The translations under genes and the position numbers were made by a program. Under the pieces are notes generated by a model. The model worked only from the letters and a program-made list of their open reading frames with translations, searched no databases and was not told the origin of the DNA. A stretch of DNA of 64,000 bases from Leptospirales bacterium (GTDB lineage Bacteria > Spirochaetota > Leptospiria > Leptospirales > Leptospiraceae). Each line of letters begins with the position of its first letter. The first letter of the stretch is position 1. The stretch is from positions 62,001 to 126,000 of the forward strand of contig JAAFIR010000007.1 in NCBI GenBank assembly GCA_013297885.1. Reading direction: 5' to 3'. Shown here one piece after another: positions 58,747 through 62,528 of the stretch.

Positions 58747-58886
58747 GGGCGAATTTTTTTTGCAAGAATGGGATGCGGGTCAAGACCAACCGTCTTTCCA
58801 CAGTTGCAAAAAAAACCGTGCTTTTCGCTACTTCTGAATCCTTCAACTAAAGTCAGAGGATTCAGAAACGCTACAATCACTTTCGC
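58747..58886 (+). repeat. Structured intergenic element, copy E9
   Basis: It starts GGGCGAA and ends CACTTTCGC. P1 is GCGAA/TTCGC and P2 is GTG/CAC, a compensatory change at the middle pair relative to GGG/CCC. The first hairpin arms are TTTTTTTTGCAA/TTGCAAAAAAAA with a richer G+C loop; the second are TCTGAATCC/GGATTCAGA. It lies between the symporter start and the HxlR stop. Confidence 0.88.
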
Positions 58887-58899
58887 TTGTTTTGAAAAA

Positions 58900-59235
58900 C
58901 TATTTTTGAAAAGCAGTAAATTTTTTCCCCCAATCCCAGAGACCTTGAAGAATGGGACCAAGTTCAATCCCTTTTTTAGTTAGAATATATTCATATCTAG
59001 GTGGGTGTTCAGAATATAATTTTGCTTCAATAATTTCATATTTTTGAAGTTTTTTAATTCTATCTGAAAGTATATTTGGAGAAATTTTTTCTTCAGCTCT
59101 TAAAAACTCGTTAAATGTTTTAAATTTTTTTTTAAACATATCCCTTAAAATAAGTAAAGTCCATCTATCCCCAATAATTTCTAAGGTTCTTCCTACTGGA
59201 CAATTTATATCCAATAATATTAGTTTATTTTGCAT
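58900..59235 (-). CDS. HxlR-family winged-helix transcriptional regulator
   Basis: This 111-residue DNA-binding protein has CPVGRTLEIIGDRWTLLILRDMF at the N-terminus, including the conserved cysteine (C12) that serves as a redox or electrophile sensor in relatives such as YodB and HypR. The wing and recognition helix follow (ISPNILSDRIKKLQKYEII) and PPRYEYILTKKG. It is divergent from an SDR gene, and the shared 160-base region carries a perfect 16-bp palindrome, so autorepression together with control of the SDR is likely. Confidence 0.92.
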   Translation of the reverse strand: MQNKLILLDINCPVGRTLEIIGDRWTLLILRDMFKKKFKTFNEFLRAEEKISPNILSDRIKKLQKYEIIEAKLYSEHPPRYEYILTKKGIELGPILQGLWDWGKKFTAFQK

Positions 59236-59396: not shown

Positions 59397-60191
59397 ATGT
59401 CAAACAATGAAAAATTTAGAAACAAATATGGTAGATGGGCATTAGTCACAGGTGCTTCAGATGGAATTGGAAAAGATTTTGTATGCGAACTTGCTAGAAG
59501 AGGATTTAATTTAGTTTTAGTTGCTAGACGTAAATCTATTTTGGAAGAAATCGGAAGTAAACTTAGAAAAGAAAATTCTATTGAAATACAAGTCATAGAA
59601 GCTGATCTTTCTGATTCAAACGACACTAAAAAAGTTATTTTGAATACAAAAAATTTAGATATAGGATTAATAGTATTAGCTGCTGGATTTGGGACTTCAG
59701 GAGAATTTATATCTATTTCAATTGAAAACGAATTAAATATGATTGATCTAAATTGTAGAGCAGTTGTAGAATTGACTCATTCTTTTGCAAATAAGTTTAA
59801 GCAAAATAAAAAAGGTGGAATCGTTTTATTTGGTTCAATTCTAGGATTCCAAGGTGTTGCTAGAACAGCAAATTATGCAGCAACAAAAGCATTTGTTCAA
59901 AGTTTTGCTGAAGGCATTAGATCTGAATTAAAACCATTTAATGTTAATTTAGTTTCAGTAGCTCCCGGACCTGTCAATTCAGGATTTGCAGGTAGAGCAA
60001 ATATGCAAATGGGATCAGCACAAAGTCCGGAAGGAATTGCAAACGAAACCTTAAATGCACTTGGGAAAAAAACAACAGTTCGACCAGGTTTTTTATCCAA
60101 GTTACTAGGTTATTCTCTTTCAACTCTACCGAGATTTGGAAGAAGTATTATTTTAAATAAAATTATGAGTGAAATGACAGGTAAGAAATAA
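59397..60191 (+). CDS. Short-chain dehydrogenase/reductase under HxlR control
   Basis: This 264-residue classical SDR has TGASDGIGKDF (cofactor loop), VLAAGFGTSG in the NAG position, serine in LFGSILGFQG and YAATK (catalytic Tyr-Lys). VSVAPGPVNSGF is the PG motif. It resembles the DltE/YqjQ-like group with a C-terminal hydrophobic helix, and may act on acyl or steroid-like ketones. It shares a promoter region with the HxlR regulator and one base with the downstream lipoprotein gene, suggesting a small inducible detoxification unit. Confidence 0.9.
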   Translation: MSNNEKFRNKYGRWALVTGASDGIGKDFVCELARRGFNLVLVARRKSILEEIGSKLRKENSIEIQVIEADLSDSNDTKKVILNTKNLDIGLIVLAAGFGTSGEFISISIENELNMIDLNCRAVVELTHSFANKFKQNKKGGIVLFGSILGFQGVARTANYAATKAFVQSFAEGIRSELKPFNVNLVSVAPGPVNSGFAGRANMQMGSAQSPEGIANETLNALGKKTTVRPGFLSKLLGYSLSTLPRFGRSIILNKIMSEMTGKK

Positions 60192-61302: not shown

Positions 61303-61743
61303 ATGTCAAAACTAGAAATTTTAATGCCTGAAAATTATTTTTATGAAACTGAACTTGTAGTAAGATTTGCTGATGTTGCAAATGCTGCAGTTCTTGGAAC
61401 CAATGTTTCGCATATGGTTTTTGATACATATCTTAGTTTTGTAAATGAAGCATTTGATTTGTTTTTAGAAAGTTACGGTTTTTCAAAATTTGATATTGCA
61501 GGTGCAAATTTAATCATACCAAATTGCCAATCTGTTTATTTGGGTGAATTAAATCCTCATGATAAAGTTAAAATTGAAGTATGCCCAACTAATTTTGAAG
61601 AAAAAGCTTGTGATATCTTTTTTAAAATGTCAAAAAATGGAAATACTGTTGCAAATATAAAACTTGGAATTATTTTTTATGATTATGCAAATCACAGAAC
61701 ACTTAAAGTTCCAGAAAAATTTTTGGAATTATTTAAGAGGTAA
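61303..61743 (+). CDS. Hotdog-fold acyl-CoA thioesterase-like protein
   Basis: This 146-residue protein is of the 4HBT/hotdog type. FYETELVVRFADVANAAVLGTNVSHMVFDTYLSFVNEAFDLF matches the first strand and long central helix; GANLIIPNCQSVYLGELNPHDKVKIEV the following strands. The usual catalytic Asp/Glu of the DWMGH motif is represented by FADVANAAVLG, so activity is uncertain. It starts GGATTC-ATG and lies two bases before a longer paralogue, making a likely heteromeric pair. Confidence 0.8.
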   Translation: MSKLEILMPENYFYETELVVRFADVANAAVLGTNVSHMVFDTYLSFVNEAFDLFLESYGFSKFDIAGANLIIPNCQSVYLGELNPHDKVKIEVCPTNFEEKACDIFFKMSKNGNTVANIKLGIIFYDYANHRTLKVPEKFLELFKR

Positions 61744-61745
61744 TT

Positions 61746-62528
61746 TTGTCTAAAAAAGAAATCCAACTCCCTGAAAAATTTTATTATACAACTGAAATTT
61801 TTATTAGAAAAACTGATCTCAGTTTAGACATTCATGTTTCATTTGCTTCTATTTTGGATTTAGTAATGGAAGCACATTTGCAGTTCCTTGTAAAAAGAAA
61901 TTTTACACCCACAAATATTTTTGGTAAAGGAATTATTTTTGCAGAAGCAAATATCCAATACCAAGGTGAGCTCTTTTATGAAGATGTAGTTAGAATTGAA
62001 GTTGGAATGATGAATTTTTTTGAAAAGGGCTTTGATTATGTTTTTCGATTAACAAAATCAAATGGTACAAAACCTGTTTCATATGTTGTGATTCGTGTTT
62101 TGTTTTTTGATTATGAATTAAGAAAAATTGCAAATGTTCCAGAAGAATTTAAACATCTTTTTTCAGAATCAAAAAAATCTAACCCTGTTTTAAAAATAGA
62201 CACTAACCTATGGAACAAGTCACATCAAATTTCTCTTGAAGCTTACAAACTCACTAAAAAACTTCCTTCAGAAGAGCTAAACCATTTAACAGCACGTATC
62301 CGCAAATCAGCAACTTCATTGCCTTTATCGATTAAAGAATTTGAATCCAAATCAGATAAAGAACAGAGACTTAAGTCTTATTCTCGTGTTAGAGGTTATA
62401 TAGAAGAATTAAGATATTATATCATACTATCAAATGATCTTGGTTATACTGATTCTAAAGAAGTGATTTCAAAACTAGATATGTTTATTATTGAGTTAAA
62501 GGAAATTTATTTATCTGGGAAAAATTAA
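61746..62528 (+). CDS. Fusion of hotdog thioesterase domain with a 23S rRNA-IVP-type four-helix bundle
   Basis: This 260-residue protein has two parts. Residues 1-145 are a hotdog domain paralogous to the preceding gene (FYYTTEIFIRKTDLSLDIHVSFASILDLVMEAHLQFL; QYQGELFYEDVVRIEV). Residues about 157-258 match the four-helix-bundle protein encoded in 23S rRNA intervening sequences: SLEAYKLTKKLPSEELNHLTARIRKSATSLPLSIKEF, then a KEQRLKSYSRVRGYIEELRYYIILSNDLGY region. The bundle is normally a stand-alone protein of about 120 residues and of unknown function. The start is TTG 61746. Confidence 0.85.
   Translation: MSKKEIQLPEKFYYTTEIFIRKTDLSLDIHVSFASILDLVMEAHLQFLVKRNFTPTNIFGKGIIFAEANIQYQGELFYEDVVRIEVGMMNFFEKGFDYVFRLTKSNGTKPVSYVVIRVLFFDYELRKIANVPEEFKHLFSESKKSNPVLKIDTNLWNKSHQISLEAYKLTKKLPSEELNHLTARIRKSATSLPLSIKEFESKSDKEQRLKSYSRVRGYIEELRYYIILSNDLGYTDSKEVISKLDMFIIELKEIYLSGKN

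Follow-up and report, generated by a model that had tools for sequence, protein, structure and literature searches.

IVP is a small stand-alone four-helix protein that has been known since the 1990s and is often encoded in insertions of 23S rRNA genes, and the IVP insertion of Coxiella was described as a selfish element. To our knowledge, no function has been assigned to IVP proteins, as an earlier note on this DNA had also stated. That statement needs qualifying, however, since Avd, a related protein, plays a part in diversity-generating retroelements (DGRs; PMC10053308) and PF05635 genes, the Pfam family of IVP, are also found in cas loci (PMC3936711). The IVP signature is GxxRxxxSxxxNxxE (PMC3936711), and one protein of solved structure, 2GSC, is a homopentamer of four-helix bundles (PMC4990558). 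Many PF05635 members in the genomes of the phylum studied here also lie outside 23S genes.

In the window, the whole 64,000-nucleotide stretch of Leptospiraceae DNA that was analysed, an IVP four-helix bundle follows a 4HBT_2 hotdog domain of the thioesterase type within a single 260-residue protein (61746–62528, + strand), as judged from the list of open reading frames, Pfam and NCBIfam profiles, AF2 models and orthologues. This is a true, conserved and lineage-specific new combination of two domain families that were already known, and no IVP-thioesterase fusion was found in the open-licence papers searched.

Domain architecture and active site of the fusion

From the sequence, the frame opens with a TTG start codon, and a Shine-Dalgarno-like AAGAGG site (61735–61740, + strand) was read directly 5 nt before it, within the 3′ end of the preceding gene. 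Residues 29–137 (61830–62156) match PF13279 4HBT_2 with an E-value of 2e-13 and 51.3 bits (cut-off 25.5), the entire hotdog fold covering about residues 8–138. Residues 153–242 (62202–62471) match PF05635 23S_rRNA_IVP with an E-value of 3e-16 and 59.9 bits (cut-off 33.8), the entire bundle covering about residues 154–256, and the NCBIfam model TIGR02436 (four helix bundle protein) matches residues 155–254 with 60.9 bits (cut-off 24). Thus, the hotdog-IVP fusion that the earlier note had proposed is borne out by both Pfam domains, and the IVP profile match that it had looked for at residues 157–258 is given by both IVP models. The linker between the domains (residues 139–153; 62160–62204) is variable in length and sequence, with low pLDDT at residues 141–151. 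The fusion protein also matched the IVP crystal structure 2GSC in a phmmer search (E 1.4e-6). An assembly error or frameshift as the source of the fusion was considered and ruled out, since the same architecture is present in one unbroken frame in four other genomes. The gene is flanked by protein genes, with no 23S insertion as its host.

AF2 modelling of the whole fusion from five orthologues gave a modest pLDDT of 70 and a hotdog, with its long helix (residues 33–50) in the sheet, followed by four helices; the IVP part alone, modelled with 25 relatives, reached a pLDDT of 94.2. In Foldseek, the best matches of the IVP part are the 2GSC chains (XCC0516; TM 0.82–0.89), followed by 2RLD (BT_0352) and weakly by Avd (TM about 0.7), including the DGR ribonucleoprotein entries 4DWL and 8UB7. 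The hotdog part matches YbgC (1s5u and 5t06) with TM(target) values of 0.86–0.89, as well as YbaW/FadM, Aq_1494 and other 4HBT proteins. The fused domain is like the IVP (S23p) family in its above-cut-off profile scores, its four-helix bundle and its W..Y..fP.E subgroup motif, but it sits behind a hotdog and outside 23S genes and carries invariant residues of its own. Of the signature R-x3-S-x3-N-x2-E, all five known fusions keep R, S and E and replace the Asn by Ser or Thr, so that the domain is a divergent IVP relative by profile and fold rather than a standard IVP. With Avd it has a superfamily fold in common, whereas the identity is 8–10%, the NCBIfam Avd model scores 19.1 bits against a cut-off of 80, and no reverse transcriptase is nearby.

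The hotdog shares Pfam family and fold with the 4HBT_2 thioesterases but differs from them in its extra C-terminal domain and at the position of YbgC Asp18, which we take to be the catalytic Asp (general base) of YbgC-type 4HBT enzymes. In the alignment, this position is Ser or Ala in all five fusions, which makes catalysis by the fusion hotdog uncertain, and Asn in the stand-alone hotdogs of a sister family; D24, H30, E42 and E75 are invariant among the relatives. The positions of catalytic residues vary among hotdog enzymes (PMC516016), and an activity of the fusion hotdog is thus possible, not assured. The two halves also differ in charge, the IVP part being basic (pI 8.9–9.5) and the hotdog part acidic (pI 5.4–6.4) in all five fusions.

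Directly upstream lies a stand-alone hotdog paralogue of 146 residues (61303–61743, + strand), which has the 4HBT_2 domain only, in agreement with the earlier description of an adjoining paralogue without IVP. According to tree and alignment it is 37% identical to the hotdog of the fusion, and its active-site loop carries an insertion of 7 residues. Its stop codon is 2 nt from the TTG, and the two genes are likely to be translationally coupled.

Distribution, origin and selection

Whole-genome searches covering eight genomes of the family found the fusion, at about 50% identity, in five of them, all Leptospiraceae MAGs and together representing two genera. An alignment scan of 84,980 genomes, which reaches only relatives sharing the pattern stretches, gave no carriers beyond the four known MAGs; the window fusion protein as sole query against the genome contigs gave no match, and none was found in the viral contigs searched. 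Among about 90 IVP matches listed across 393 genomes of the phylum, only five are fused to a hotdog. Four IVP matches in long frames (in G109, G113, G154 and G320) were rejected as further fusions, since none contains a hotdog, and those of G113 and G154 are weak, below the Pfam cut-off. In G109 (contig C70, locus L074, 777–1913), the N-terminal half of an IVP is in frame with a different, nucleotide-sugar-enzyme-like C-terminal protein, probably a deletion joint.

In the IVP tree, the domains of all five fusions group together as a single clade (support 100/99) with a long stem, which points to a single fusion event. The clade belongs to the W..Y..fP.E half of the tree, which also includes chromosomal free IVP copies. 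The hotdogs of the fusions likewise form one clade (92/98), with the stand-alone paralogue outside. Most simply, the fusion would have arisen once, and the window genome would have its stand-alone hotdog separately from it. As to the donor, the 23S gene of another family member (G003) is 4,056 nt long, compared with 2,925 in the model, and contains insertions, one of which holds a decayed IVP remnant. IVS-borne IVP genes therefore occur in the family, and a source for the fused domain is at hand. The IVP tree gives no sign that the fused domain derives from this remnant, and the assembly of the window genome yielded no 23S gene. In the G003 gene (contig C1, locus L079, 669–4724), the IVP remnant has a stop codon.

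The window genome (G000) has another IVP, of a different type in the tree, on contig C28. This free gene stands near the contig end beside a weakly Avd-like gene (locus L051, 9663–12406; PF22296 E 1.7e-4, below cut-off), and the two are flanked by Lcl_C-type surface proteins. The window genome assembly gave no reverse transcriptase match above cut-off. From its gene content, the cassette looks like the target cassette of a DGR whose reverse transcriptase is missing or unassembled.

Among the five fusions, pairwise identity is 50–86% in the hotdog, 43–60% in the IVP part and 7–28% in the linker. For the closest pair, G005 and G007, dN/dS (NG86) is 0.04 in the hotdog and 0.20 in the IVP part, values that are approximate because dS (1.8–1.9) is near saturation. 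All five keep the IVP core motifs ATSLPL[ST]I-x-E and RGY-x-EE without change, and likewise the fusion-specific residues H160, Y218 and E221 and the RGY-EE-YY pattern, which free IVPs do not share. By these measures, the IVP part is kept under purifying selection in at least two genera.

Gene neighbourhood and upstream leader

A FabG-like SDR gene directly follows the fusion gene in G005, G006 and G007, and in G005 and G007 a FabF-like KS gene is divergent from it at 186–194 bp, with a FabH-like (KASIII) gene behind. These neighbours agree with the link to acyl-thioester metabolism that the earlier note had suggested. In G004 and the window genome, the FabF/FabH-like pair lies elsewhere in the genome with a CoA-transferase gene between the two; the KS and KASIII genes of the window genome are on a separate contig (C34), so that the pathway link is not universal. 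Within the window, an SDR gene (mycolate-reductase/FabG-like; 59397–60191, + strand) is a loose neighbour, 1.1 kb upstream of the fusion on the same strand. Taken together, the neighbouring genes support an acyl-thioester role of the fusion, with no fixed operon. Two further features were seen in these regions. Behind the synthase pair (L046, 1323–6650; L047, 12718–18048) a protein of about 1,775 residues with a Ser/Thr-kinase-like N-terminal domain is encoded, which is conserved in G004 as well, and the window contains, at about 58808–58912, a copy of a repeat, about 100 bp in length, that is scattered over the genome in about 40 copies (79–91% identity).

Just upstream of the fusion gene, a 17-nt leader, TATGTCTCATCRGGAGT, is exactly conserved in G005, G006 and G007 (C163, 32262–32278; C179, 6295–6311; and C310, 25528–25544; loci L046, L048 and L047, respectively), with no other exact copy there; it was not found in G000 or G004. 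The ribosome-binding site lies within the leader, and so may a short overlapping reading frame that starts ATGTCTCAT. Judged by eye, the upstream DNA around it has no obvious similarity among the three genomes, and an exact leader within seemingly unrelated DNA looks selected. No palindromic operator common to the fusion upstream regions was seen.

Possible roles of the fused bundle

The reading we prefer, although our confidence in it is evenly balanced, is that one ancestral fusion has been kept by selection and that its IVP bundle self-associates and clusters hotdog dimers into a larger particle. A single event in an ancestor of these Leptospiraceae would have placed an IVS-type IVP bundle behind a 4HBT_2 hotdog protein, at its C-terminus. 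Among solved structures the nearest homologue of the bundle is 2GSC, a pentamer, and the bundle most likely multimerises the fusion protein in the same manner; the self-associated bundles would then gather the hotdog dimers into one larger particle, which may bind or process acyl-thioesters of a fatty-acid-like pathway with FabF-, FabH- and FabG-like partners. By analogy, an oligomerisation role for the IVP part is plausible, and this part probably holds copies of the thioesterase part together. The fusion-specific invariants and the lost signature Asn could, on the other hand, reflect a function other than multimerisation. One such function would be the docking of another protein, namely a synthase, reductase or carrier protein, in place of self-association. 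We regard this as unlikely: the invariants absent from free IVPs and the synthase and reductase genes adjoining the fusion in relatives would fit it, whereas the neighbourhood varies among the five genomes and no partner was identified. Also considered was a hetero-oligomer in which fusion and paralogue would share active sites. Hotdog proteins often form dimers or tetramers of dimers, and the two genes are coupled in the window genome at a distance of 2 nt, but the other four fusion genomes lack the paralogue, which is therefore not needed for the conserved function. This leaves the hetero-oligomer as a very unlikely account and one for the window genome alone, and the hetero-oligomer with the preceding gene product that the earlier note had envisaged is not supported as a general feature.

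A rather unlikely alternative is that the fusion acts as an acyl-thioester sensor, in which a non-catalytic hotdog binds an acyl-CoA/ACP ligand and the basic IVP bundle attaches to nucleic acid, RNA being the most likely, so as to regulate fatty-acid-type genes. The precedent is FapR, a malonyl-CoA sensor in which a non-catalytic hotdog has an added DNA-binding part (PMC516016). The fusion resembles it in pairing a hotdog that lacks canonical catalysis with another domain, and in some carriers it is close to fatty-acid genes; unlike FapR, its second domain is of a different kind and C-terminal instead of N-terminal, and there is no HTH. The change of the canonical Asp to Ser or Ala in all five fusions would suit a sensor, but the sister-family stand-alone hotdogs also lack this Asp, so that it was lost before the fusion arose and its absence does not have to imply sensing. 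The basic bundle on an acidic hotdog points the same way, as do the weak Foldseek matches to Avd, which itself acts within a ribonucleoprotein; free IVPs, however, carry similar charges, a DNA-binding motif is absent, and IVP is not known to act as a regulator. The divergent KS gene of G005 and G007 and the exact leader in three genomes would also fit, yet the leader is missing from the other two and includes the ribosome-binding site. In its full form this proposal seems quite improbable to us: a regulator that responds to acyl-thioesters through a non-catalytic hotdog sensor, binds RNA (or DNA) through an IVP/Avd-type bundle and controls fatty-acid-type genes, perhaps together with its own conserved leader. 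Finally, the joined form might be a neutral accident, in which an IVP gene or 23S insertion came to follow a hotdog gene in the same frame and has no role, in line with the patchy distribution of IVP genes and with the remnant inside the 23S gene of a family member. We find this hardly credible, because five genomes, drawn from two genera, keep the frame intact at an identity of about 50%, the IVP core is invariant, and the dN/dS of the IVP part is about 0.2.

Since selection has maintained the joined form in at least two genera, the IVP module does more here than selfish DNA would, and the long-selected bundle of the fusion shows that this module can do useful work. With the acyl-thioester ligands expected of its hotdog, the fusion would offer an assayable handle on the function of the IVP bundle.
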